Below, one piece after another: positions 3,299 to 61,641 of a DNA stretch of 64,000 nucleotides (positions are counted from its first letter, which is position 1; every line of letters begins with the position of its first letter). The DNA is from a virus. Position numbers and translations under genes: made by a program. The stretch is from IMG/VR virus record IMGVR_UViG_3300022902_001021, positions 1-64,000 of that record; one strand, written 5' to 3'. The notes beneath the pieces are model-generated. The model ran no database searches. It saw only the letters and a program-made list of their open reading frames with translations, and was not told the DNA's origin.

Positions 3299-3550
3299 GT
3301 GTCTTTAAATACAAATTGGCAAGACTTTTTATGTGAGAGTCTTGATGAAAAAACAATATTCACTTATATACAGGGTTTAGAAGAAGTTATATCTAATCTC
3401 AAACCTCGTTCTATGACTGAAAAGCGTAGAATGGCGCTAGCCAAGCAGCACTTACGTGAGGTTAAGCGACATGCTAGACGCATGATGAATGAAAACAATG
3501 TGTTACAAGAAAAACTTAATATATTGGAAGAAAGTGTAGGAGATAAGTAA
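3299..3550 (+). CDS. Small helical, basic protein (GTG start)
   Basis: 83 residues. I chose the GTG at 3299 because a good Shine-Dalgarno, GGAGG at 3287-3291, lies 7 bases before it. The longer reading from 3269 would place the SD inside the gene. The protein is predicted all-helical and basic in the middle (MTEKRRMALAKQHLREVKRHARR) with a C-terminal coiled-coil stretch (NVLQEKLNILEESVG). The stop overlaps the next ATG (TAATG). The family is not recognised; nucleic-acid or scaffold binding is conceivable from the charge. Confidence 0.6.
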   Translation: MSLNTNWQDFLCESLDEKTIFTYIQGLEEVISNLKPRSMTEKRRMALAKQHLREVKRHARRMMNENNVLQEKLNILEESVGDK

Positions 3551-7007: not shown

Positions 7008-7352
7008 ATGAAGATCAATAAAACTAACTTGACAACCACAAATAAAAGTATTATACTAAAGTTGTGCTTGCAAGATGATCTACTAACACAGATTAATAAA
7101 CTATCATTAGAAGATCTTATAGCAGTCAAGTTAGAACTATCATCTAGAAATATAAATAACAGGTTATATGGCTTTGATATCTGGAGAAAGTCCAATTATA
7201 TTATTAAAGAAGCAATTCTCAAATTTGCTCTTTCAACTACTAGTTCTAAGAAGAGCGCAGCAAGGTTTCTAAATCTAACCTATATTGAGTTTAGAAGAGT
7301 AGTGAAAGACTATAAAGTAAAGGAGTGGTTCTCTCAACCATCAGATCTTTAA
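7008..7352 (+). CDS. Probable HTH (Fis-like) DNA-binding protein
   Basis: 114 residues. The C-terminal half reads IIKEAILKFALSTTSSKKSAARFLNLTYIEFRRVVKDY. It matches the layout of a Fis/HTH_8 helix-turn-helix, in which a long helix precedes K.AAR.L....F.R.... helices. The N-terminal 45 residues are helical and could dimerise. A perfect sigma70-like promoter (P2) lies within codons 8-17, so part of the transcripts would start inside the gene. A shorter product from TTG codons near 7062-7068 is therefore possible. A role as a transcription regulator of neighbouring early genes is inferred. Confidence 0.55.
   Translation: MKINKTNLTTTNKSIILKLCLQDDLLTQINKLSLEDLIAVKLELSSRNINNRLYGFDIWRKSNYIIKEAILKFALSTTSSKKSAARFLNLTYIEFRRVVKDYKVKEWFSQPSDL
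7029..7057 (+). promoter_or_regulatory. Sigma70-like promoter P2, inside the HTH gene start
   Basis: TTGACA at 7029-7034 and TATACT at 7052-7057 have an exact 17-base spacer, one mismatch from consensus overall. It sits 100 bases downstream of P1 and within the first 17 codons of the HTH-like gene. It would yield a transcript starting near 7064 that reads into the structured gap at 7353-7531 and the lipoprotein/tmRNA genes. It may be chance in AT-rich coding DNA, but the match is unusually good. Confidence 0.45.
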
Positions 7353-7531: not shown

Positions 7532-8143
7532 ATGCTATATTTTTTACTATCGATGTTAGTATGTTGCAAGCCGGCAAAAGTGATACTTGAGGATGGAATA
7601 GATTCTTCAAGTCAAATAGAGCCACAATTGGGAGAACCAGAAATACCCAGAGAACCAGTAGGGGTTATGGCAGCAGAAGATTGCCAGCAAATTAATATGG
7701 GCGATAAGGCATGTGACTTTAGACTTAGACACCAAAATGGTGAAGTGTGGAGTTTAAATGATTATGAGGGCGATATCGTATTATTAGATTTCTCCACAGT
7801 CTGGTGTCCGCCATGCCAGGCCGCAGGACACTCCACACAACCCCTACAAGACGCTTATGGTGCAGAGGGTGTCAGGATAGTGACTATACTCATCGACGGT
7901 GCCCAGAACGGTGTTGAGCCATCGGAAGAAGAAATAAATACGTGGGTCTCCGATCATAATATCACCACTGCACCGGTTCTACGAGGTTCTAGAGATAAGA
8001 TGATGGATCCGTCAGGTATTACAGGATATCCGCTCGGCAGCTGGCCAACATATCTTTATCTGGATAGAGAACTCAAATTTTATGCTGGACATTCAGGATT
8101 CAGCGAAGAATACGCAAGACAAACAATAGAGGAAAAACTGTAA
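7532..8143 (+). CDS. Thioredoxin-fold (TlpA/AhpC-like) lipoprotein
   Basis: 203 residues. A short hydrophobic N-terminus, MLYFLLSMLVCC, ends in a lipobox-like LVC, predicting export and lipidation at C11, although Val before Cys is atypical. After a spacer rich in Glu and Pro, the TlpA-type domain shows GDKACDFRLRHQNGEVWSL, then LLDFSTVWCPPCQAAG with the redox pair C92-P-P-C95. A cis-Pro region, GSWPTYLYLDRE, follows. Such proteins reduce or exchange disulfides on the outer face of the inner membrane or in the periplasm. A strong AAAGGAG ribosome site precedes the ATG. A phage copy could act on host envelope proteins or on exported phage proteins; the target is unknown. Confidence 0.75.
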   Translation: MLYFLLSMLVCCKPAKVILEDGIDSSSQIEPQLGEPEIPREPVGVMAAEDCQQINMGDKACDFRLRHQNGEVWSLNDYEGDIVLLDFSTVWCPPCQAAGHSTQPLQDAYGAEGVRIVTILIDGAQNGVEPSEEEINTWVSDHNITTAPVLRGSRDKMMDPSGITGYPLGSWPTYLYLDRELKFYAGHSGFSEEYARQTIEEKL

Positions 8144-8352
8144 TGTGGAAAATATATAAATGGAATGGAAAGTATATCAAGGGAGACTTGGTAAGTAAGC
8201 ATTCTAGCGAAGACGCTGCTATTAAGAAGGCTAAGAAAGAAATTGGCTTTACATATGCAGAAAAATCAAAAATAGGAAAAGAAACACTTATTTGGTTAGA
8301 TGATGAGCATCATACACCAATGGGTGTAATTATCAAAAAAACTCGGGGGTGA
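8143..8352 (+). CDS. Small basic hypothetical protein
   Basis: 69 residues, coupled to the lipoprotein gene by TAATG. It is basic and rich in Lys (AAIKKAKKEIGFTYAEKSK) with beta-like ends (MWKIYKWNGKYIKGDLV; LIWLDDEHHTPMGVII). The stop codon TGA at 8350-8352 lies inside the acceptor stem of the tmRNA, which starts at 8345, so this mRNA and the tmRNA overlap by eight bases. No family is recognised. Confidence 0.55.
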   Translation: MWKIYKWNGKYIKGDLVSKHSSEDAAIKKAKKEIGFTYAEKSKIGKETLIWLDDEHHTPMGVIIKKTRG

Positions 8353-8689
8353 TCTGGATTCGACAGAGTAAGAAAGAAGAAAAGTGCAAGTAGTCAAACG
8401 TAGCAGCAGACTTTAAATGCAGATACAAAAAATAATTGCTAATAACAATAACAACTTCGAATCTGTCCGCTTAGCGGCTTAATCGGGTGGCCGCTCAAAG
8501 CCATCTATTCAATTTGAGCAAAACAAGAGATAACTTGTAAAAATCAAACCATCTAATGCAACAGGGTAATAAGCGTTAGATTATAATTACCTACCCTATC
8601 AGTGAGGGGATACAAAAACTGATAAGCTTGTGAATGACTTGAATTTGGGCCTATTCTGGACGCGGGTTCGATCCCCGCCGCCTCCACCA
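8345..8689 (+). ncRNA. ssrA: Transfer-messenger RNA (tmRNA), one-piece
   Basis: A complete 345-base tmRNA. The 5' end GGGGGTGATCTGGATTCGAC matches the conserved tmRNA start, and the 3' end has GGACGCGGGTTCGATCCCCG then CCGCCTCCACCA with an encoded CCA. The acceptor arms GGGGGTG and CGCCTCC pair over seven positions, and the T arm is GCGGG-TTCGATC-CCCGC. The reading frame for the tag begins at GCT 8438 and runs to TAA 8480-8482: A-N-N-N-N-N-F-E-S-V-R-L-A-A. It ends in the LAA expected for ClpXP recognition. tmRNA with SmpB frees stalled ribosomes and tags the nascent chain. The gene is the standard uninterrupted form, unlike the permuted two-piece form of alphaproteobacteria and marine picocyanobacteria. 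No smpB is visible in the window, so host SmpB would be required. Confidence 0.95.
8438..8482 (+). other. tmRNA tag reading frame
   Basis: Resume codon GCT at 8438-8440, 14 sense codons and TAA at 8480-8482. The encoded tag has five consecutive Asn codons (AAT AAC AAT AAC AAC). The hairpin CCGCTTAGCGG overlaps its last codons, as the stem beside the tag end does in other tmRNAs. Confidence 0.85.
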
Positions 8690-11970: not shown

Positions 11971-12047
11971 TGGGGTGAGGCGACACAGGCAGTCGCACCG
12001 GGTTGTTACCCCGGCCGTTGTTGGTTCGAGTCCAACTGCCCCAGCCA
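11971..12047 (+). tRNA. tRNA-Asn (anticodon GUU)
   Basis: A 77-base cloverleaf with encoded CCA. The acceptor TGGGGTG pairs with TGCCCCA (two G-U pairs), with discriminator G. The D stem is GCGA/TCGC, the anticodon stem is CCGGG/CCCGG with loop TTGTTAC giving GTT at positions 34-36, and the T stem is GTTGG/CCAAC with loop TTCGAGT. It decodes AAC and AAU. All arms are intact, so it should be functional. It lies five bases upstream of the ATG at 12053. Confidence 0.95.
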
Positions 12048-49125: not shown

Positions 49126-51179
49126 TGGCTATTAAAAAATACTATGCGATTGCTGATAACACAATTACAAACGCTTACAAACTAAATTTATCTACGAGAG
49201 CAACCGGCGCCAACGCCGGCGCCGCAGATATTATGGAGATCTATTCAATTTATGGCCGCCAATCTACATCTTCGGCTGAGATCTCCAGAGCACTGATTAA
49301 GTTCCCCGTATCCGAGATAACATCAGATCGAAGCAATTCAAAGATTCCAGCATCCGGAAGTGTAAAATTCTATTTAAAGCTCCATAATGCAGAACACTCT
49401 AAGACTGTACCAACGGGCAGTTTTACAATTGTGGCAGAACCAATCTCAGCGGATTGGGAAGAGGGCTACGGCCTGGATCTTGAGGCATACAAAGATATTA
49501 CCAATGGGAATAAGGGCTCAAACTGGATCGCCAGAAAGGGCGAAGGCTTACAAGAAATCACTAAGGTGACTTTCACATCGACGAACAAGGCACATTACGC
49601 TGCCGGCGCCGGCGCAAACTACATAATAGCATATAATGGTAATAGGGCTTATAATCTGTGGTTCAACAACGGATCTGATTCCGCACCATCAGCCGACGGC
49701 GCAGAAGTAGAAGTTGATATAAGTTCTGCTGGATCGAGCACTGCTGCAGTCGCTTCAGAATTTCAATCGACAACTAATGCTTTGGCCGCGTTTGATTCAA
49801 ATGTTGACCCGACAAATTCTGCAATAGTATATCTATCATCAAGCCTCGAAGGCGGTCACACAGACACATCAGTTGAGGGAACTATATCCGGTATAACTTT
49901 GGCAGTTCAGCAAGATGGAAACAACGAGATACCATGGACAAAAGTTGGTGGAGATTATATCACAGCTGCAAACGCTGCATATCCTTATCGCTGGTTTAGT
50001 CAAAGCTTCACTTCTGGGCTGGAAGACATAGAAATTGATATTACTCAAATGGTGGAGTTGTGGTCCGCTGGTACGGTTGATAATTATGGACTTGGAGTGC
50101 ATCTTTCTGGAGCCTTCGAGCCATATTTCTCAACCGATTTTGATCCAACATACAGTGGATATATACAGAATACAACCGGTTCAACGGTTTCATATTACAC
50201 AAAGAGACTCTTTGCAAGGGGCTCACAATACTTTTATAAGCGCCCAGCAATCGAAGCTAGGTGGGATTCTAGCAAGAAAGACGATCGCGGCAATATATTT
50301 TACAGCAGTTCTCTAGCTGGCGTTAATGATAACCTGAATACTTTGTTTTTATACAATTACGTCCGCGGCCAACTGGCTAATATCCCCTCAATTGGCACAG
50401 ATGCAATATACGTGAGCTTTTATTCTGGGTCCGCGGATAACTCGGTACCTACTGGTAGCCTACAGACGTCTTCATACACCCCAAACCCCCCGGGCGCCCA
50501 CTCACGCGCAGCCATAGAACTTCCAACTACTCTCCCTTATCAATGGGTTGTCGACGATGATAGTCCAGACCCACCAATCAGTACAAACCCGTATGTTGTG
50601 ACCGGCGCTTGGGTATCAACCGGCATTTATAGTGCTTCTTTCGCCATAACAGGCGCCACAAACCCTCTTACGAAGATATTCGATGTCTGGCACGATGGAA
50701 CAGGCAAGAACCACCCATGGGCAAGTGTGGAGTTCGCAACCTCCTCGTTCGAGCCACTCAACATGAGTGCTTCTTACTCTATGGCTGAGCCCACGTATCA
50801 TCTTAAAATAACTAACCTTAAAGACAGTTATAGTTCAAGTGAAAATGCACGTTTTAACTTATTTATTAGAGAAAAGAATTGGAAACCAACAATTTATACA
50901 ACTTCCAAAACAACCATAAAAAGTAAATCGATGTTGAGTGCTTCGTATAGAGTATTTAGAACGATCGATGCCCACGAAGCTATCCCATATGGAACAGGAA
51001 GCAATCTACACACCATGATGTCTTATGATAATATGGGAAATTACTTCGATGTAGATATGAGTTTATTAGAGCCTGGGTATGCATATGCCTTTAAGTTCTC
51101 ATTCTATGATAGTTCGTTGAGTAGCTGGATAGAACAACCACAGACCTTTAAATTTAGAGTAGAGAATTATGAGCATTAA
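49125..51179 (+). CDS. Virion structural protein with a shared 95-residue module
   Basis: 684 residues. The N-terminal part (ADIMEIYSIYGRQSTSSAEI, SRALIKFPVSEI) recalls DNRLRE-type beta domains. Residues about 142-235 (QEITKVTFTS, YIIAYNGNRAYNLWF, then VDISS and TDTSVEGT) match a module in the protein at 61644. The C-terminal part (FNLFIREKNWKPTIYTTSKT) is beta-rich. A tail or baseplate fibre-like role is likely from context. The stop overlaps the next start by 11 bases. Confidence 0.65.
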   Translation: MAIKKYYAIADNTITNAYKLNLSTRATGANAGAADIMEIYSIYGRQSTSSAEISRALIKFPVSEITSDRSNSKIPASGSVKFYLKLHNAEHSKTVPTGSFTIVAEPISADWEEGYGLDLEAYKDITNGNKGSNWIARKGEGLQEITKVTFTSTNKAHYAAGAGANYIIAYNGNRAYNLWFNNGSDSAPSADGAEVEVDISSAGSSTAAVASEFQSTTNALAAFDSNVDPTNSAIVYLSSSLEGGHTDTSVEGTISGITLAVQQDGNNEIPWTKVGGDYITAANAAYPYRWFSQSFTSGLEDIEIDITQMVELWSAGTVDNYGLGVHLSGAFEPYFSTDFDPTYSGYIQNTTGSTVSYYTKRLFARGSQYFYKRPAIEARWDSSKKDDRGNIFYSSSLAGVNDNLNTLFLYNYVRGQLANIPSIGTDAIYVSFYSGSADNSVPTGSLQTSSYTPNPPGAHSRAAIELPTTLPYQWVVDDDSPDPPISTNPYVVTGAWVSTGIYSASFAITGATNPLTKIFDVWHDGTGKNHPWASVEFATSSFEPLNMSASYSMAEPTYHLKITNLKDSYSSSENARFNLFIREKNWKPTIYTTSKTTIKSKSMLSASYRVFRTIDAHEAIPYGTGSNLHTMMSYDNMGNYFDVDMSLLEPGYAYAFKFSFYDSSLSSWIEQPQTFKFRVENYEH

Positions 51180-54100
51180 AAAGCTTTTTGGATCCACCGA
51201 CAAAGCAAACAATTACCTAAGCGATACAGACCAGAAAGATGCCTTCGCAAGTGTAGAATCCAGCAGAAATTTAAAAGAAATTGAGGAAATCCAGGCTCAT
51301 CATATACCTCATATAGACTATTCAAAGCCAGCTAATTTTGTGAAATACGGCTCGGCAAGGTTATACTATAAAACCGCATTGAAAAGAATTTCCGACTATT
51401 ATCCTTATGACGGTTCTAGTGCTGAGATTAACTCATTCTATAATAAATCTTTAGACATAGAGAAGTATATTCTCAATAATTTATATCCAAGAACAAATGG
51501 TTATGCTATATTTAGTGCCGATGGCTGGGGCAGTAAGGCTAGCAATTGGTCAGTTCATCGCCAAGACGGCTATGGCATACCAGCAACCCCCGAAGCTATT
51601 ATAGTTCAAGGTGGTCCAAATGCTGCGACCGGCGAACTAAAAGATCTGATACCCACATCAAAGAATAATAAGTATCAATATTCTAACGTATATGACGAAG
51701 ATATCTATCGAACTGCTGGTCTTCCAAGTGATTATGGTAAGGGAACTCGCGAATCGAACATGCGCGCCAACTTCGATGATGGTGTCACAGTAGAATTTTG
51801 GATGAAGACTGGTTCCTTTACAGATGGGACCGGCACAGAAACCTTGAAGCAAGTTATATTCGACTTATGGAATCGAGAAGATCCCAATGCTGACATAGTT
51901 AACGAGGGCGACCCGCACGCATATGGAAGAATCACTGTAGAATTGACCGGCGTTGTACAGAACGATATAGACTACTCGGACCCCAATAGTTATTGGTCGG
52001 ACTCGCCATTCTTGGTCACAGTACAATCTGGCTCTGTAACCGGCTCCTACCAACAAACCATTGGTAAAAACATAACAACCAGCTCAATGGGTGAGTGGAA
52101 CCACTATGCGATAACGCTGTTTAACTCCGGATCTGGATTCATGGCAGATTTCCACGTCAATGGGCATCTCAGTGAAAGAAAGACATTAAACGCCAGTCAA
52201 ACATTGAACGAAATTGCCCCGAAGAATATGGTAGCGCGTATAGGATCACTGCTTACCGCCAGTTGTGGCGCCCTCGAAAATCCCGGACCCATAGCAAGAT
52301 TTGGTTCCATTGATGGCGGCAAGCTAAACGGCTCGATAGATGAATTCAGATACTGGAAATCTGCAAGAACTCACGAAGAAATTGGAAAGAATTGGTTTGC
52401 TCAAGTCGCCGGCGGCGCTAATACTGATATATCTAATGCAGAACTTGGAATATATTTCAAATTCAACGAAGGTATTACCGGGGATGCTTCTCTCGACAAC
52501 ACTGTTTTGGATTATGCCGGTAGAATAAGCAACGGAACGTGGTATGGATATACATCAAATTCAAGAAACACCGGTTCTGCGATTATTGAAGCCGCGGCCT
52601 CAACAAAAGAATATGAGGATCCCATCATCCGGCCCGAACACCCGGATTATATTGCACTTGAATCAGAGTTATCAATAAGTGGTGAAAACTTTGATATAAA
52701 CAACAATAACTCAATGTTGAGCTTGCTTCCCGGGTGGATTATTGAAGAAGAAGAAAATAACAAGGATTCTGACTTACAAAACATATGTCATATTGTTGGT
52801 GCTTACTTTGATAAGTTGCATATGCAAATCTCTGAAATTCCCAAGTTTCATTATGCGACATACCCAAGTGCTTCCCAGAAGCCAGCACCATTCGCAGAAC
52901 ATTTTGCACAGTCTTTCGGACTATACACGCCCGAATTGTTTATTGATTCAACAGTTCTGGAGAAATTCGCCGATAGGGATGAAGAACAGCTATTCGAAGC
53001 GAGCCTACAAGACACAAAAAATCTAATTTACACCAATCTCTATAATAATATAGCTAATATCTTTAAAAGCAAGGGTACCGAAAAGGCTATAAAAAACGTG
53101 TTTAGGTGCATGGGTATAGATGAAAAGCTGATAAAACTAGTAGTTAATTCTAATAATCAAGACATCTCTCTTAGAGACAACTATCAGCAGTCCTTAATTA
53201 ATAAAAATTGTTTAAACTTCAACAACAGTTTAAACTCAACAGCGGTTGTATATCAAGCAATTGATTCAAATAATGCAAACAGTTTAGGATACTTAACAAA
53301 TCCAACAGAGAGTTCAGCGCCATCCTATGGTTGCACGGTAGAGAGTAACATAGTCCTTCCATACTACACACGCGGTATTGGGGACATGGATAGAGATTAC
53401 GATACTGTATCTTTGTTCGGAATGTATACAGTTGATACTACAAGCGCTGATTCTAAAACAGGAGCAGACCCATCCTTCATTGGAGGTTATGGTATAGATT
53501 CTACTGGCGGCGACGATGCAAACTTTCAAGTCTATGCAATTAAGGAATCAAAGGATTCCAGAAATGTATATTTTAAACTTTCATCATCGAATAAGCCAAT
53601 ACCGTTTCCAATCGATGTCGATAATGTCCTAACAAGTTCGCTGTTTTTGAATGCATATGATAATCAAGAGTGGAACATTTCTGTAAGGCTTAAGCCCCTC
53701 AAAGGTCAGCTAACAAACTTAGTTTATGGAGCCGGCGGTACCGGGTATGAAGTAATATTTTCCGGATATCAAACTCAACTCGGGGAAGTTATAAACAGCT
53801 TTAGTGTATCATCGTCAGTTTCACAGACCACCGGTTCGTTGTTTATGGTAGCAGGCAAAAGAATATATGCCGGCGCTAATAGAGAAAACCTAACCGGCCG
53901 TGTCATCGACAAAAGTGATATACTTGTCAATAATATTAGGTATTGGTCAAAATATTTAGAAGACAGTGATCTCATACAACATACACACGATATTGAAAAC
54001 AGAGGCATTTCAGGTTCTTATAGACCACTATCTCCCATAGACACGGGAAGTGTCGATATTATTAACTCCGAGACATTAGCCCTAGAGTGGAACTTTACTG

Positions 54101-57100
54101 ATCTAACCTCAAGCCGCGCAGATGGAACTATAGGGTATATCAAAGATTATAGCTCTGGTTCAACTGATGTTCGTAACCCACATGGCAACAAAGCCTCATG
54201 GCTATCAAATCTCGCTGGCTATCAACATACGGGATATGGATATGGGTTTGCAGCAGAATCTACAAATATTGTTGATAAACGAAACTTCAACTCATATAAA
54301 CTGGTAGATCCGGAGCGCGCCGTTTCATCAGACATGATAAACATTTATAATGATGAATACGATTCATTTTACAGAGATGACAACGTACCGAATTATGTAT
54401 ATACGATTGAGAAGAGCTTTTATAATATAGTGTCAGAACAAATGATGGAGTTCTTCGCTGGAATTGTCGACTTCAATAGTCTGATTGGCGCACCAGTCAA
54501 TAGGTATAGAGATAGATACAAAGATATCGAAAAGCTCAGACAAACATTCTTTAAAAGAGTGAAGAGTGTTTCAGATGTTGAAAAGTTTGTAAAATATTAT
54601 AAATGGTTTGACGACTCAATATCTAGCATAATTTCTCAACTTGTCCCAGAATCATCAGTATTCATCAATAACTCTATGAATGTGATAGAGAGTCATGTTT
54701 TAGAAAGGAACAAATATAGGTCTAAATTTCCAACGTTAAACTTTGAAGATCCGGATGTAGAGGCATATATGAAGGGCTTCGCTGAATTGCGATACCCATG
54801 GTATGACGGCTCCTCAACATTGCCATCCTCGCCGCGGAACACCGATACACACAAGACATATTGGCTTTATAGAGCAGAAAGAGATTCTATAGAGATAACG
54901 TCGGGTGATTCCACAATAGATACCCAAAGAAATAAATATAAGGACATTATCAACCGCGCCCCACACATGACGGGAGCATATCCCACTTTGTCTGATGCCT
55001 CCGGCACCCTTTACTCATCTCACAAATACTCCTTAAATAAATTCGCCCGCACAAGTAAATTTAATATGGATGTGCCGGTTGTTAGAAACCTAACTCGACC
55101 AATTAAAGGTGGAACTAACTTTGAGCCCGAGAAAGACCTGAGTTTTGCACCGATAGCACTACATCCAGCCGGCCCAGTAAATAGAGAAAATGGTATTTTT
55201 GTTCCTAGAAACGTTTTGCTTGGAATGACTAAAGAGATGGTAGAAACTCAAAATATTGTTGATCCTACAAGACCACCGGAATTTATTTCGAAGGAAAAGA
55301 GAGTATTTAAGGTTCAACATGGTAGAGATTGGGAAGATGGGATAGGATATAAAAATGTTAAATCAAGTATCGGATTTCCTTTTAATGTATTAAGTTCCTC
55401 AGTTAAGACTGGCTACAATAAAAGTGTAATAGACAATGTTACCGGAGGTATTGAGATTACAAACCTTCATAATGATACCTATGGCGATGATAAAGAAGTG
55501 CCAATGCAAGGTACATTTACTGAGAGGGTTGTTGGTGGCCACCAATCTAGACATATAGCAATCAACACCGGTACCGATAATTGGAAATCACGCCCTGAAG
55601 CTTGGAAAATTCTACTTGGAACCTGTAAAGCTAACCCATCTGGTGCTATTGGAATGGTGGGGCCAGATTATCCATGGCCAGAAGCCAACGAAGAAGGTAT
55701 GGTGCCATACCCTTTAACATGCTCGCAAAAGGCGGTGTATTACAGAGACTTTGTCACCAAGCGCCCAGTTAATATTAGAAATATAAATACGATGGATGTC
55801 CCGCGTTCAACGACTGTTCCTGGAAATTACGAGAACAATTATGAAGTAGTAAATTCCTTCGGCGCCCACGCAAACCCCCGCCGCTTCATAGATAATCAGC
55901 CGACCCCGCCAGAAAGAGCATTCAGAAATAATGTGACCGGCGCCACTCAAATAAGAACGTTCTTAGATACTCGTAGGACAGATGAGAGCCATTCGGAATT
56001 GATGCCTGAATATTCAACAGAATATTTGCAGATCACAAGCTCTGAGAATAAAACTGTAATAGCTACTAGATTTTCTAATCCTGGTGGCCCCGAAACAATG
56101 ACTAGAGGTTACTTGGACTTTAGATCAGCAGAGATGTCAGTTTATAACGCCTTTAATTATCGAAATCTAGGCATCATAAAACATTCACAAGGTCCAAGTG
56201 GAACACTCCCAGAACCCCCGGGCGCTGGCCCGACTACAACCAGGGTATATGATATACATGCGAAAGACTATGGACTGAGAAGTCACAGAGCAAGACACAC
56301 CGCAAGATTTGGCCGTGACTCATTGTTTGTTACTTCATCCGATAATCTCCCCGGCGCCCAATATGATCAATTACCGGGCTTTCACAAAATTCACAGAAAC
56401 AATGTCTCGCGACTGAAGATTGTCGATCAATTAAACGCGGAGCTTAGCGGTATTTACTTAAATAATACTGACAGTATATTATGGCCAGATCCATCCCAGA
56501 ACGCTGGAAATTGTTTAGTAGTACAAGCAACTAGTTCAGACGGCCAGAACGCCGCCAATGCCCTCATCTTTGATAACAATCTTGTTGGCGCCGCAAACGA
56601 GTTCCCAGTTTGGACGTTCTCGGCATGGGTCAATCCATCTGCCTCCAATGCAGCGAGGACAATATGGGACGCCGGTAAAACCAGCGTCGGGAATGGTTCA
56701 GCCCACACAATCACGATTGAGGGTGATGAGACTCTGAGATATCAAGCTAAAACATCACTTGCCGCCGGCGGAGGTAATGAGAGATTTACATATTGGGAAA
56801 CCAATACGAATACAATATCAAATGGTTCATGGAATCACATTGTCGTAAGTGTATCCGGCACCATTGGAGGTCTCTCAAATTCCCTCAAGCCTACCCTGTA
56901 TATTAATGGAGTTAGTATGTCTTGGGACGGCGCTACTAGTCCATCCTTGACTCCGTATGATAATCTGCCAAACGCGCGCACTGCACATTCAAATTTCCGG
57001 AGTCATACTGGTTGGAGCCAAACACCACCGGTAGTAATTGGAGGTGATTGGCAAAGTGCGAACTATAAAGAATACTATGGTGCCCTCGATGAAATATCAA

Positions 57101-60100
57101 TCTGGAACACTCAACTCACCGATCAAGAAGTTACTCAAGTATATAACTCTGGCGCCCCCTGTAACCTAACACATAGCACATCACCACAATCAGAATCTCT
57201 GAAAGCATGGTGGCGTCTAGGAGAAGGAGATGCAGCAGTCTCCGGAGTTCCTTCCGGAAAAATAATGGACTCTAATAATATCATAAGAGATATAGTTGGT
57301 TCTGCTTCTCTGTGTCCAACCGCGCTATCTGGTTCAAATATGAATCTATATATAGTTCCAAGTTCTTTGGCCGGCTGCGATGAGCGGGTTACAATATATT
57401 CAGAAACCGTAACACATGTTTCGTCGTCATTATACGACAATGATCATATACAACACCCCATACCCAGGACCGACATACAATATAAATGGATAAGAGATTC
57501 AATTTCAGATCCAGATAATACAAGATACTATGAATTTCAGAAGACAACCAATAGCAGTAGAATGCCATATTTTTCAAATTCTGCGGGATACACGCCTTAT
57601 TACAACTTTATCACAGAGAGTCAGGCCGCCCATAACCAGAATATATCACCCGGCGGCTGGAAGCAACCAATTTTAAGGCTAAATACATTAATACTTGATC
57701 CATTAACAGAAAACTCTAACACTATAGGCTTCGCCGCCGATACTGATGTTTCAGATTATATAAACACCGAACTTAATCCGGGAATCGGCTCTACCAACTA
57801 TCTGAACATGTTGTTGGCACATCGTTCAGTGCCGTACGGCTGGACCTGGCAGAAAACTAGAAATTATAATAATCCGATAATTATTGATGAAAGAAAAAAA
57901 TCAGCATTATCAGCAATTACAAGTTCTAACAAAAGGTTACAACACTTTAGAATGTCTGCAGTCTCCACGCGCGCCCGCACAGCACTGATAAATTTTGATG
58001 CTCCAATGCGGATCGGTAAGAAGGGAAACACTGCAATAGGCGCCAAAAATAACATCACTCTTAAAGTGACTGATAACAATGAAAGGATCATGTTTAACGA
58101 GGCAGCTTTTAACAGCTATATAAATAATAATGTTATCACTGAACCCACCCCACTAACACAAATCATTAGGCTTGGAAACAACTCGAAAAACAAGTTCAAA
58201 CTTAAATGGATCCTATACAGCCAAAACTTGTTCCCATCCGAAAGAAATGAATATATGTCTGGAACATACAAGAGAAATGGATATGATAATGGATATTGGA
58301 GAGTAACAGGAAGCGAAAGAATATCTCTGGGAGCAACACAGAGTGGCTCCTTCTCATATAATATATTTTCAAGTTCAATCGGCCGCTCCTCTTGGCCCCT
58401 AGATGAGCCGGAAAACTTCTTAACAAGAACTAGGATACTGGGCCCAGATCTTGATGGCGGGTTGTCAATGCAGAAAAATGGCAATGCCGGCGAGCTTCAA
58501 AACGTACACTTCTCTTACGTGTCATGTTCCTTGGTTGGGGGAAACCTACAATTATCAAAGGTATCAGAACTGTGGCCGGCCGCCTTGTATGCTAGAAAAC
58601 ACATGTTAGCTGCACCTCGTTCTGTGGTTAGCCCATCTGGGATTGAAAACAATATTGGAATGCCTGGAAGTGATGGTGTTAATTTCTCTAAGAGATACAG
58701 CGTTGAAATTTATGCCGGCGAAGCTGCCTGGGACGCACCAAGAAACGCCGGCGTAGTCCGTATGGGATACTCATCCGAAAATAGCAACAAGGGAACTAAA
58801 ATATCGTCTTATCAAGTCACGTCTTCCGAACCATGGTTTGCCACATACGACGACTTTAGTTATGAAATGGGTCTGATAGCTAAAGATTATTCTGTGGTGC
58901 CAGAATTTAGAATCAGCGAACATATCGAAGATTATATGAAGCACGGCCCCTTTGACGCTACAAAAAATGATATTTTTGAAGTTCCTGGTGTATCTGGGTC
59001 AGCCAATAGTTCTACTGGATCATTCTATAAGGATTACTCAAATTCCGAGTTTATGAAAGATTTTCTAAGAGTAAAATCTGAATCTTTCCTCGAAGCGAAA
59101 GAAATAAGATTAGTTTGTAGTGCAGCAATCAGGCTAAATCCATACAAGGGCTTTTATCCAGCCCAACGAACTCTCGACTTGGTTGGACAATTTTCTAGTT
59201 CTTATGCTAACAGCATAACAGCTGTGTGGGAACTCAACGGCGCTAAAAAGCCACTCAATGTTGATAGAGCCCTTCAAGCAAGAGGTAGCACAATAAGACC
59301 ACTAATGCAAGCTCTTTACTCACCTGGCCTAATGTATAATACGATTAAGTCCGGAATAGCGGTCGACTATCCAATTGTAAATGATAAGTCTAAAATCGAA
59401 CGGTCACAGTATGGGAGACCATCAGCTGGCCCTATGCAGTCACTTAAACAATCCGATGACAACTATGCTATTTTACCGGCAAATATAAATTCTAATAGTC
59501 CAGTTTCTGGATATAATGGCGGCTCATGGTTTGATGTTAGATTGCCGTTTGAAACGCTTTTGCAGCCAAAAAATCATATTAATGGTCTTAAATTTCTAGA
59601 TATAGAACCACACCCATCGGCTAGCTTATCACCAGCAAACGTTACAACGTCATTTAATTCTCAAGGTGGAGATGAAATGTATGAGATGATGGCATCAAAC
59701 TTTTTTGGAGAGGTGCCTAACTTCTTTCTGAAAGATTCTAGTTTCACCAGGATAGAATCTGGCATTATACCAGACGATCTTAGTTTCAAAGACGGCGAAG
59801 TTTATGGTGCTAGATTAAAGATAAGGAGATCAACCACGGGCACAAGAACATACTCATATGATTCTGGATCCACTGGTGACGGTACAAACTTCGCACCTTT
59901 TGGAGCAAAAGCATTTTATGATCAGAAAGCCGCCGGCGGCGGAGACACTAATGCCTGGTACCCCGTACCCCAAGATCCACAAAATGCCAGAATGGATCCT
60001 ATCGCGCCCTTTAGAGAAACTTTTACGATGTACAGTCGCCCCTCGGCATTCGGCCCACCGATTTCTGGACGTCCCCCGTCTGGTTCAAGCGGAAACCGCC

Positions 60101-61641
60101 CAACGTGGTTTTTAAGTGCCAGCCTGTCTGGTACCATGGATTGCTTTAATGGGTATAACTGGGCCTACACACCACCTTATTACCATGGCGAATCATGGGT
60201 TGATTTTATCTTCAGACCCACCCCCGGAACAACATATAACTTACAATCTATATTAGCCAATATTAAAACAAGATATTGGAGAGTCGATCCAGGGATGGAA
60301 TCCACCGCGGTTAATGCCAGCCAAAACAGATCCCCGGCCCTAGTCTTTGGAGGGAACTATCTTTCAGGCGACGACTGGGCCCAGTTCCAACCAATTTACG
60401 CCGGCGCAAACATCAATGATAACGCAATGCAACTAAGTGCAAGCTTCAACTTGTTCGGCATCGAGCGCGCTGCAAAAGAGACGTCTGATAGATTTGGTAA
60501 AAAACTAACAGAAGAAAACACCACTACCGGAATGAAATGGGTTATTCAACCAAAATTTGAGACACCAATGCTAAACTTTAATGATACTGGAGTTAATGCA
60601 ATTAGCGCCAGTTTAGGAAACAAGAGCATCCCATTATATGGATCTGGGTCGGTACCAAACGGAATGTGGCACCAATTTGGAAACATTCCAGACAAGCCAA
60701 ATGTAGGGGTCTTTATGGAAATGGGTGATATCCCCACACAATGGTTAAAATATCATTATGATGTTAATAGCACTGGCTCGATTTATAATAATTTTGATGC
60801 ACCCAATAGTGGATCTCAAGCTGCTAGACAAATAAAATCTCTTTCTAATTTACTTGGTTTTGAACAGCGTGCCAATACTCGTCGTCTTGGGGAAATAGCT
60901 GAACAAAGAACAATCCGAGAAGCGATTGTTGCCATTCCATATGTTATTGAAGAACTAGAAAATTTTGAGCCTCCATTCGGTGATCGCAAAGATCCAGAGT
61001 GTGGTTCTCGCGATGTGAGTCAGATGTCACGAAAAAGATTAATCTCTATTCCAAAGAAGAGATTTAAAGCTGCACTACAAGAAACTGATGGAACGCTAAC
61101 CGGCGACTCCCTATCCACCGCCGGCGAATCGATCAGAAAATTGATGCAAAAGATGGAAAGGTATATTCTACCTCCGCAGTTTGATTTTATACAACACTCT
61201 AACATTGATCCTTTTGTGATGTATATGTTTGAATTCGAATATAAATTTGATAAAGACGATTTATCATATATATGGCAAAATCTCGCTCCACGTAATTATA
61301 AGAAGCTGACATTTGAGGCACAGTCTATATCACATGAATTGATGGATATGGAACTTCTTAATGAAAATAGTTTGTTCGACAACGAACATATGAGGTGGAT
61401 GGTATTTAAAGTTAAACAAAAAAGTCAAAGTGGATACTATGATCATGTTGTAGGCCAAATTGGAGATGTTAATATGTCTAAAAATGGAAAGATATCAAAA
61501 AATCAGAATACCACAAATTCGTCCTTACAGTATAACTGGCCGTACGATTACTTATCTTTCGTAGAACTAATTAAGTTTGATGTTGATGTATTGTTTAAGG
61601 AGCCAAAAGATAATAATGACAACGGCAAAGGGTCAAAATAA
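51169..61641 (+). CDS. Giant virion protein with two LamG-like domains, 3490 residues
   Basis: Two concanavalin/LamG-type jelly rolls are readable: residues about 200-430 (VTVEFWMKTGSFTDGTG; WNHYAITLFN; LNGSIDEFRYWKSARTHEE) and about 1800-2020 (FPVWTFSAWVNPSAS; SWNHIVVSV; YYGALDEISIWNTQLTDQE; LKAWWRLGEGD). Such domains bind sugars, which fits a receptor-contact or glycan-binding role. The rest is beta-rich with many Ser/Thr/Asn/Gly-rich linkers. At 10.5 kb it is one of the longest phage genes I would expect to meet; no stop or frameshift interrupts it. It lies between the baseplate genes and another beta-rich virion gene. Confidence 0.75.
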   Translation: MSIKKLFGSTDKANNYLSDTDQKDAFASVESSRNLKEIEEIQAHHIPHIDYSKPANFVKYGSARLYYKTALKRISDYYPYDGSSAEINSFYNKSLDIEKYILNNLYPRTNGYAIFSADGWGSKASNWSVHRQDGYGIPATPEAIIVQGGPNAATGELKDLIPTSKNNKYQYSNVYDEDIYRTAGLPSDYGKGTRESNMRANFDDGVTVEFWMKTGSFTDGTGTETLKQVIFDLWNREDPNADIVNEGDPHAYGRITVELTGVVQNDIDYSDPNSYWSDSPFLVTVQSGSVTGSYQQTIGKNITTSSMGEWNHYAITLFNSGSGFMADFHVNGHLSERKTLNASQTLNEIAPKNMVARIGSLLTASCGALENPGPIARFGSIDGGKLNGSIDEFRYWKSARTHEEIGKNWFAQVAGGANTDISNAELGIYFKFNEGITGDASLDNTVLDYAGRISNGTWYGYTSNSRNTGSAIIEAAASTKEYEDPIIRPEHPDYIALESELSISGENFDINNNNSMLSLLPGWIIEEEENNKDSDLQNICHIVGAYFDKLHMQISEIPKFHYATYPSASQKPAPFAEHFAQSFGLYTPELFIDSTVLEKFADRDEEQLFEASLQDTKNLIYTNLYNNIANIFKSKGTEKAIKNVFRCMGIDEKLIKLVVNSNNQDISLRDNYQQSLINKNCLNFNNSLNSTAVVYQAIDSNNANSLGYLTNPTESSAPSYGCTVESNIVLPYYTRGIGDMDRDYDTVSLFGMYTVDTTSADSKTGADPSFIGGYGIDSTGGDDANFQVYAIKESKDSRNVYFKLSSSNKPIPFPIDVDNVLTSSLFLNAYDNQEWNISVRLKPLKGQLTNLVYGAGGTGYEVIFSGYQTQLGEVINSFSVSSSVSQTTGSLFMVAGKRIYAGANRENLTGRVIDKSDILVNNIRYWSKYLEDSDLIQHTHDIENRGISGSYRPLSPIDTGSVDIINSETLALEWNFTDLTSSRADGTIGYIKDYSSGSTDVRNPHGNKASWLSNLAGYQHTGYGYGFAAESTNIVDKRNFNSYKLVDPERAVSSDMINIYNDEYDSFYRDDNVPNYVYTIEKSFYNIVSEQMMEFFAGIVDFNSLIGAPVNRYRDRYKDIEKLRQTFFKRVKSVSDVEKFVKYYKWFDDSISSIISQLVPESSVFINNSMNVIESHVLERNKYRSKFPTLNFEDPDVEAYMKGFAELRYPWYDGSSTLPSSPRNTDTHKTYWLYRAERDSIEITSGDSTIDTQRNKYKDIINRAPHMTGAYPTLSDASGTLYSSHKYSLNKFARTSKFNMDVPVVRNLTRPIKGGTNFEPEKDLSFAPIALHPAGPVNRENGIFVPRNVLLGMTKEMVETQNIVDPTRPPEFISKEKRVFKVQHGRDWEDGIGYKNVKSSIGFPFNVLSSSVKTGYNKSVIDNVTGGIEITNLHNDTYGDDKEVPMQGTFTERVVGGHQSRHIAINTGTDNWKSRPEAWKILLGTCKANPSGAIGMVGPDYPWPEANEEGMVPYPLTCSQKAVYYRDFVTKRPVNIRNINTMDVPRSTTVPGNYENNYEVVNSFGAHANPRRFIDNQPTPPERAFRNNVTGATQIRTFLDTRRTDESHSELMPEYSTEYLQITSSENKTVIATRFSNPGGPETMTRGYLDFRSAEMSVYNAFNYRNLGIIKHSQGPSGTLPEPPGAGPTTTRVYDIHAKDYGLRSHRARHTARFGRDSLFVTSSDNLPGAQYDQLPGFHKIHRNNVSRLKIVDQLNAELSGIYLNNTDSILWPDPSQNAGNCLVVQATSSDGQNAANALIFDNNLVGAANEFPVWTFSAWVNPSASNAARTIWDAGKTSVGNGSAHTITIEGDETLRYQAKTSLAAGGGNERFTYWETNTNTISNGSWNHIVVSVSGTIGGLSNSLKPTLYINGVSMSWDGATSPSLTPYDNLPNARTAHSNFRSHTGWSQTPPVVIGGDWQSANYKEYYGALDEISIWNTQLTDQEVTQVYNSGAPCNLTHSTSPQSESLKAWWRLGEGDAAVSGVPSGKIMDSNNIIRDIVGSASLCPTALSGSNMNLYIVPSSLAGCDERVTIYSETVTHVSSSLYDNDHIQHPIPRTDIQYKWIRDSISDPDNTRYYEFQKTTNSSRMPYFSNSAGYTPYYNFITESQAAHNQNISPGGWKQPILRLNTLILDPLTENSNTIGFAADTDVSDYINTELNPGIGSTNYLNMLLAHRSVPYGWTWQKTRNYNNPIIIDERKKSALSAITSSNKRLQHFRMSAVSTRARTALINFDAPMRIGKKGNTAIGAKNNITLKVTDNNERIMFNEAAFNSYINNNVITEPTPLTQIIRLGNNSKNKFKLKWILYSQNLFPSERNEYMSGTYKRNGYDNGYWRVTGSERISLGATQSGSFSYNIFSSSIGRSSWPLDEPENFLTRTRILGPDLDGGLSMQKNGNAGELQNVHFSYVSCSLVGGNLQLSKVSELWPAALYARKHMLAAPRSVVSPSGIENNIGMPGSDGVNFSKRYSVEIYAGEAAWDAPRNAGVVRMGYSSENSNKGTKISSYQVTSSEPWFATYDDFSYEMGLIAKDYSVVPEFRISEHIEDYMKHGPFDATKNDIFEVPGVSGSANSSTGSFYKDYSNSEFMKDFLRVKSESFLEAKEIRLVCSAAIRLNPYKGFYPAQRTLDLVGQFSSSYANSITAVWELNGAKKPLNVDRALQARGSTIRPLMQALYSPGLMYNTIKSGIAVDYPIVNDKSKIERSQYGRPSAGPMQSLKQSDDNYAILPANINSNSPVSGYNGGSWFDVRLPFETLLQPKNHINGLKFLDIEPHPSASLSPANVTTSFNSQGGDEMYEMMASNFFGEVPNFFLKDSSFTRIESGIIPDDLSFKDGEVYGARLKIRRSTTGTRTYSYDSGSTGDGTNFAPFGAKAFYDQKAAGGGDTNAWYPVPQDPQNARMDPIAPFRETFTMYSRPSAFGPPISGRPPSGSSGNRPTWFLSASLSGTMDCFNGYNWAYTPPYYHGESWVDFIFRPTPGTTYNLQSILANIKTRYWRVDPGMESTAVNASQNRSPALVFGGNYLSGDDWAQFQPIYAGANINDNAMQLSASFNLFGIERAAKETSDRFGKKLTEENTTTGMKWVIQPKFETPMLNFNDTGVNAISASLGNKSIPLYGSGSVPNGMWHQFGNIPDKPNVGVFMEMGDIPTQWLKYHYDVNSTGSIYNNFDAPNSGSQAARQIKSLSNLLGFEQRANTRRLGEIAEQRTIREAIVAIPYVIEELENFEPPFGDRKDPECGSRDVSQMSRKRLISIPKKRFKAALQETDGTLTGDSLSTAGESIRKLMQKMERYILPPQFDFIQHSNIDPFVMYMFEFEYKFDKDDLSYIWQNLAPRNYKKLTFEAQSISHELMDMELLNENSLFDNEHMRWMVFKVKQKSQSGYYDHVVGQIGDVNMSKNGKISKNQNTTNSSLQYNWPYDYLSFVELIKFDVDVLFKEPKDNNDNGKGSK

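Follow-up and report, generated by a model that had tools for sequence, protein, structure and literature searches.

The locus analysed here raises the question of whether an uncultured virus encodes a complete and working tmRNA, and of what such an RNA would do for the phage that carries it. It lies in IMG/VR virus record IMGVR_UViG_3300022902_001021, a 68-kb fragment (68,194 bases), of which positions 1 to 64,000 constitute the stretch analysed (64,000 nucleotides, hereafter referred to as the window). An earlier note, made from the letters alone, had proposed a phage-encoded tmRNA of the uninterrupted type with its own degradation-type tag, and had regarded such genes as known in a few phage groups but uncommon. 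The latter is in agreement with a 2022 survey in which 402 of 18,146 phage genomes (2.3%) carried a tmRNA and only 2.5% of the one-piece phage tmRNAs were marine (PMC9004378). Mycobacteriophages and Bacillus phage G are among the carriers already described (PMC4131195), and both tmRNAs and SmpB have been reported in huge phages (PMC7162821).

ARAGORN and Rfam independently assigned identical bounds to the gene (Table 1), the Rfam match to RF00023 scoring 119.4 bits against a gathering threshold of 47 (E 4.7e-46) and covering the complete model (1-374). It is the sole tmRNA within the 68,194-base record. The 5' and 3' acceptor strands lie at opposite ends of one gene, the standard model is matched over its full length and the permuted tmRNA family has no Rfam match in the window, all of which bears out the one-piece, non-permuted form claimed earlier. 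Permuted-model matches in two related loci (L012 and L052) were not accepted as two-piece genes; the model covers the tRNA-like domain only (PMC11915505) and the L012 match overlaps a standard tmRNA. The acceptor strands GGGGGUG and CGCCUCC pair at all seven positions, the third pair being G·U, and are followed by A-CCA; with the T arm (8662-8678), the encoded CCA and a tag frame running to LAA also seen, the gene is complete, as had been stated. The G3·U70 pair is the alanine-identity pair, and it occurs with all seven acceptor pairs in each of the 73 phage tmRNAs of the window type that have an encoded ACCA.

Table 1. Positions of the tmRNA gene, its structural elements and the neighbouring genes in the window.
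Feature	Position	Strand	Basis
114-aa conserved ORF, head of apparent operon	7008..7352	+	homologues adjoin other phage tmRNAs
AhpC/TSA-redoxin-like protein, same apparent operon	7532..8143	+	Pfam PF00578, E 1.5e-12
69-aa ORF (MWKxYK family), UGA stop 8350-8352 at tmRNA positions 6-8	8143..8352	+	sequence
Complete standard (one-piece) tmRNA gene	8345..8689	+	ARAGORN; Rfam RF00023
Acceptor stem, 5' strand GGGGGUG	8345..8351	+	7/7 pairs with 8679-8685
Pseudoknot 1, stem 1 (8392-8395 AGUC / 8409-8412 GACU)	8392..8412	+	complementarity across relatives
Tag reading frame, resume codon GCU, ANNNNNFESVRLAA, stop UAA	8438..8482	+	ARAGORN
Pseudoknot 2 (8485-8491/8500-8506 and 8493-8499/8513-8519)	8485..8519	+	covariation
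Extra hairpin ACAAG-AGAUAA-CUUGU, between pseudoknots 2 and 3	8523..8538	+	covariation
Pseudoknot 3 (8551-8559/8573-8581 and 8564-8570/8586-8592)	8551..8592	+	covariation
Pseudoknot 3-4 block exchanged between phages	8551..8624	+	identity to L009 vs L012
Pseudoknot 4 (stem 1 ~8594-8596/8607-8609; stem 2 8598-8603/8618-8623)	8594..8623	+	complementarity in window
T arm, acceptor 3' strand, discriminator A, encoded CCA	8662..8689	+	sequence; Rfam alignment
tRNA-Asn (GUU), encoded CCA, only tRNA gene in window	11971..12047	+	ARAGORN; Rfam 41.7 bits

A degenerate pattern built from the window tmRNA retrieved 102 viral stretches, and 79 distinct complete tmRNAs of the window type, the window's included, were analysed for structure and tag. 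Stem 1 of pseudoknot 1 is complementary in 78 of the 79, in six versions (AGUC/GACU, AGGU/ACCU, AGGA/UCCU, AGGC/GCCU, AGGG/CCCU and AGCC/GGCU), while the second stem is weaker and was judged by eye only. Across 51 distinct sequences, the two stems of pseudoknot 2 are paired in 100% and 99% of the cells, with both sides changed in 2 and 7 pairs, the extra hairpin in 86%, where 4 of 5 pairs show such double changes, and the stems of pseudoknot 3 in 79% and 84%, where 8 of 9 and 6 of 7 pairs do. Controls with slid stems gave 12-70% overall and 25-52% for pseudoknot 3. Pseudoknot 4 is complementary in the window, its stem 1 by eye, and covariation is blurred by a slip of one column in the alignment of the relatives. 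The low Rfam posterior values in the pseudoknot region more likely reflect divergence than absence. A poor covariance score and a missing pseudoknot set, which the earlier note had named as grounds for doubting the gene, were not encountered: the scan gave a high score, and, as far as the sequence shows, pseudoknots 1 to 3 are present with covariation and a fourth, more weakly supported, can be formed in the window. A chance origin of the match is excluded by the E-value and by the conserved relatives with compensatory base changes.

Variants of the RNA were also observed. Eight relatives (L036, L038, L049, L050, L099, L104, L117 and L137) have longer tmRNAs of 371-422 bases, with extra segments, some of them pseudoknot-like, between pseudoknot 2 and the 3' end. 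The most distant PhoH relative (L017:6740-6800) has a tmRNA with no CCA directly after the acceptor strand, and a second CUCCACCA occurs a few bases beyond that strand.

The gene is phage-encoded, as first proposed, as judged from the virus record, the baseplate wedge proteins and PhoH encoded in the window, and the syntenic relatives. Glycosyltransferases, a B12-radical-SAM protein, a redoxin and a DUF6267 protein are also encoded. The PhoH protein is less than 40% identical to its matches in isolates, and this together with the gene content points to a distant T4-like, contractile-tailed phage. A marine setting is suggested by the relatives of the DUF6267 protein, which are found in cyanophages, Pelagibacter phage HTVC008M and methylophage Melnitz. 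A search of 50,697 isolate phage records at E 1e-5 found no match to the tmRNA DNA; phage G is part of the collection and its own tmRNA was recovered there (67.6 bits). Likewise, neither a 684-aa window protein encoded downstream of the baseplate gene nor the consensus of the small upstream ORF matched isolate phage records. An ORF of 3490 aa (51169-61641) was also noted downstream of the baseplate genes.

The tmRNA is present at the corresponding site in all seven PhoH relatives whose contigs span it, and tmRNAs of one large and apparently undescribed clade occur in about 100 uncultured viral contigs. In trees with 64 bacterial tmRNAs the phage sequences form a single clade, and the window tmRNA has no close relative among those 64. 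These results bear on the reading that the gene is a functionless host tmRNA gained at an integration site or through recombination, a notion that draws on the frequent use of tmRNA genes as integration sites and on the tmRNA fragments found in prophages (PMC9004378). Such an origin is highly improbable and is already contradicted by the full length of the gene, its compensatory changes, a tag conserved across a broad clade and the separate clade formed by the phage sequences.

Two tree methods disagree on the deeper position of the phage clade. A cyanobacterial origin was considered, FastTree having placed the clade beside Cyanobacteriia (support 0.92-0.999) and the tags being alike in appearance (ANNIVxF and ANNNxHF), and was not adopted; the placement was not reproduced by IQ-TREE (trimmed columns, 1000 ultrafast bootstraps) and may have arisen from long branches. 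Assignment of a host through metagenome-assembled genomes (MAGs) was also rejected. Phage contigs bearing the tmRNA were binned in three different phyla, with Neomarinimicrobiota (L146), WOR-3 (L137) and Methylococcaceae (L247), and only one of 245 genomes of Neomarinimicrobiota has a phage tmRNA, so that the binning was not trusted. In the WOR-3 'chromosome' MAG (L137, near 3355-3450), the phage-type tmRNA and a phage-like ORF adjoin a stretch of N, so that the locus could represent a provirus or two scaffolds falsely joined. The Methylococcaceae contig (L247; G405 contig 5, 305,838 bases) carries a phage-type tmRNA with the tag ANNNYHYESARLAA along with thymidine kinase and adenylosuccinate synthase-like genes, and resembles a jumbo phage that was sorted into a bacterial bin.

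The tag of the window tmRNA has 14 aa and belongs to a family of phage tags following ANNNx(H/N)F...(R/A)LAA, other examples being ANNNLHFEQRLAA, ANNNNHFESVRLAA and ANNNTHFEAARLAA. In the 79 tmRNAs, a set picked by the pattern and by tags starting ANNN and hence favouring the first residues, residues 2-4 are Asn in every tag with codons alternating between AAU and AAC, and residues 1-4 show synonymous variation only; 73 of the 79 tags end in LAA. A peptide kept constant despite codon variation, together with the LAA end, establishes that the tag peptide is selected, and this support stands, since neither feature is a product of how the set was chosen. The mRNA-like domain has been kept in full, as has a tag under selection, and this also bears on whether the RNA acts as a decoy, titrating SmpB and thereby blocking host trans-translation, as proposed for the tmRNA of phage DS6A, which consists of the tRNA-like domain only (PMC4131195); a decoy needs neither and this role is very unlikely here.

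The bacterial tags seen in the comparison (ADYGYMAAA, GENNYALAA, ANDENYALAA, ANNIVxF...) differ from the phage tag, and its fate in the host is therefore uncertain. The tag is unlike that of E. coli and ends in LAA, as the earlier note had it; its description as the phage's own tag holds insofar as the tag is phage-encoded, and is an understatement in that the tag is common to the whole phage clade. Among genomes drawn from Neomarinimicrobiota, three (L200, L201 and L202) have tmRNA tags of 21 aa that share VPTHL and end in AYAFA or AYAMA, unlike most other tags of the phylum, which have 8-12 aa.

It is conceivable, though unlikely, that the selected role of the RNA is to displace the host tmRNA and to add a tag that host proteases would treat differently, so that phage products are spared or host proteins are fed to degradation. 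A tag that is common to the phage clade, unlike every bacterial tag seen here and under coding selection is in line with such rerouting; against it, the ordinary LAA end of 73 of the 79 tags predicts ordinary degradation. The earlier note's suggestion that the RNA could replace or outcompete host ssrA, for example where cleavage of host mRNA strands ribosomes, likewise gains no support from the present results.

The tRNA-Asn gene of the window was considered as a possible supplier for the Asn-rich tag. Among the 38 tmRNA-bearing loci that have any tRNA, tRNA-Asn is the most frequent kind (29 loci, which are not independent), and the tags of these tmRNAs hold 3-5 consecutive Asn. The idea was not adopted, the non-independent 29 of 38 being an association only.

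Comparison of related phages indicates that parts of the gene have separate histories. The window and L009 (5455-5800) are 96.8% and 99.7% identical in their 1-kb flanks and 99% alike over tmRNA positions 1-175, but only about 48% alike over positions 207-280. The L009 block closely matches the one in L010 (97-98% identity), a locus with flanks just 54% and 27% alike, and the window block is 94-95% identical to that of L012, the 5' part of which is 63-71% alike. When 63 tmRNAs were compared, 18 pairs were nearly alike in the 5' part (difference below about 10%) but diverged by more than 35% in the pseudoknot 3-4 block, and the reverse was seen in two pairs. The mismatch between block and flank identities makes recombination inside the tmRNA gene a well supported reading of these alignments. 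No earlier report of such an exchange was found in a non-exhaustive search of the literature.

A second feature of the locus is the small ORF of the MWKxYK family, the stop codon of which lies within the tmRNA gene. The family (MWKxYK...IWLD) comprises 47 distinct proteins of 66-86 aa with invariant residues I12, G14, H20, A26, A30, I50, W51, G61 and I63. Nothing convincing was found in Pfam, and among viral proteins a single strong match was obtained, to an unnamed relative. An AlphaFold model (pLDDT 92.9) predicts a beta-beta-alpha-beta-beta-beta fold, to which no solved structure matches at E 0.001. Of 51 loci found via the tmRNA, 37 have the stop within that gene. A protein-first search, whose seed alignment was drawn from tmRNA neighbours and which tests close relatives only, yielded 80 loci, 68 of them with an intact downstream tmRNA by ARAGORN (67 within 70 bases). 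Of the other 12, eight are truncated at the contig end, where the start of a tmRNA-like sequence can still be seen, and in one (L354) the contig ends at the ORF; L311 has a tmRNA by Rfam starting 8 bases before the end of the ORF's stop (L072), and L328 and L358 have a tmRNA elsewhere in the same contigs (L092 and L065). The stop falls within the tmRNA in 50 of the 68 loci holding both, at offsets of +8, +10, +12, +13, +27 and +37 to +41 and in all three frames, and just before it (0 to -61) in a minority. An earlier report of a stop codon overlapping a tmRNA was not found in the literature searched.

If RNase P cuts a shared transcript at 8344/8345, the stop at 8350-8352 would be lost and the upstream message would become nonstop; maturation of the tmRNA would thus generate a nonstop message. 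Such a transcript might yield either the small protein or a tmRNA and a nonstop message to be cleared by that same tmRNA, with tmRNA production shutting off the small protein. This switch, an added function compatible with plain rescue, is at present a speculative proposal. It is favoured by the frequent overlap in all three frames, the near-obligate pairing of the ORF with the tmRNA and a scan that found no terminator-like site between the two, and is weakened by the loci in which the stop precedes the tmRNA, by the frequency of few-base overlaps among phage genes for compactness, and by the fact that the two products would no longer be coupled if the ORF contained a promoter; compact packing is the plain alternative reading of the overlap. 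A broader proposal, in which the tmRNA and the small protein form one overlapping unit with a nonstop by-product of maturation, the products regulate each other and the pseudoknot 3-4 blocks are traded as interchangeable cassettes, is likewise doubtful.

The preferred reading is that the gene encodes a working standard-form tmRNA of a distant T4-like phage, which would perform ordinary trans-translation with the SmpB of its host; a probability of about 0.82 is given to this reading, and the four alternatives discussed above all rank below it. The tmRNA would be transcribed together with the upstream redoxin and small ORF genes, and a promoter scan gives a promoter-like site at 7029-7057 (consensus match only). 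Host tRNA-processing enzymes would excise it, RNase P acting at the 5' end, and host AlaRS would charge it with alanine through G3·U70. SmpB (PF01668) was found in none of ten related records, all of them fragments, in a search whose control was positive in 10 of 14 genomes; host SmpB is therefore the presumed partner that would bind the phage tmRNA. The charged tmRNA would rescue ribosomes stalled on broken mRNA during infection, which is its likely benefit, and the nascent protein would gain the tag of the phage clade, (A)ANNNNNFESVRLAA. LAA is an established degradation signal of SsrA tags, and at the C-terminus it should direct the tagged protein to host ClpXP-type proteases.

The gene shares with bacterial ssrA (RF00023) the tRNA-like domain, G3·U70, an LAA-ended tag frame and pseudoknots 1 to 3, with a probable fourth in the window, and differs in being phage-borne and in having a 14-aa tag and an extra hairpin between pseudoknots 2 and 3. 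Mycobacteriophages Bxz1, Catera and Wildcat, Bacillus phage G and others likewise have standard phage tmRNAs (PMC4131195, PMC9004378), whereas the window gene has no DNA match in the phage collection at E 1e-5. Melnitz and the pelagimyophages are T4-like and have the DUF6267 protein in common with the window phage, but their tmRNA is two-piece (PMC9004378); in Melnitz it has the permuted form and is associated with a glutamine riboswitch, while that of the window is standard and no riboswitch was found in the window at Rfam's threshold. Huge phages likewise encode a rescue RNA, and SmpB is reported from them as well, whereas none was found in the ten records related to the window phage. Thus, phage tmRNA as such is already known, and what is new is the clade with its family of tags, the exchange of the pseudoknot block and the overlap with the stop codon.

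Among uncultured T4-like phages, a broad group widely retains a one-piece tmRNA, which is an argument for ribosome rescue being of use to lytic phages. Both the exchange of pseudoknots and the overlapping stop codon are concrete features open to test, and a fixed phage tag replacing that of the host would make the fate of tagged proteins in infection directly testable.
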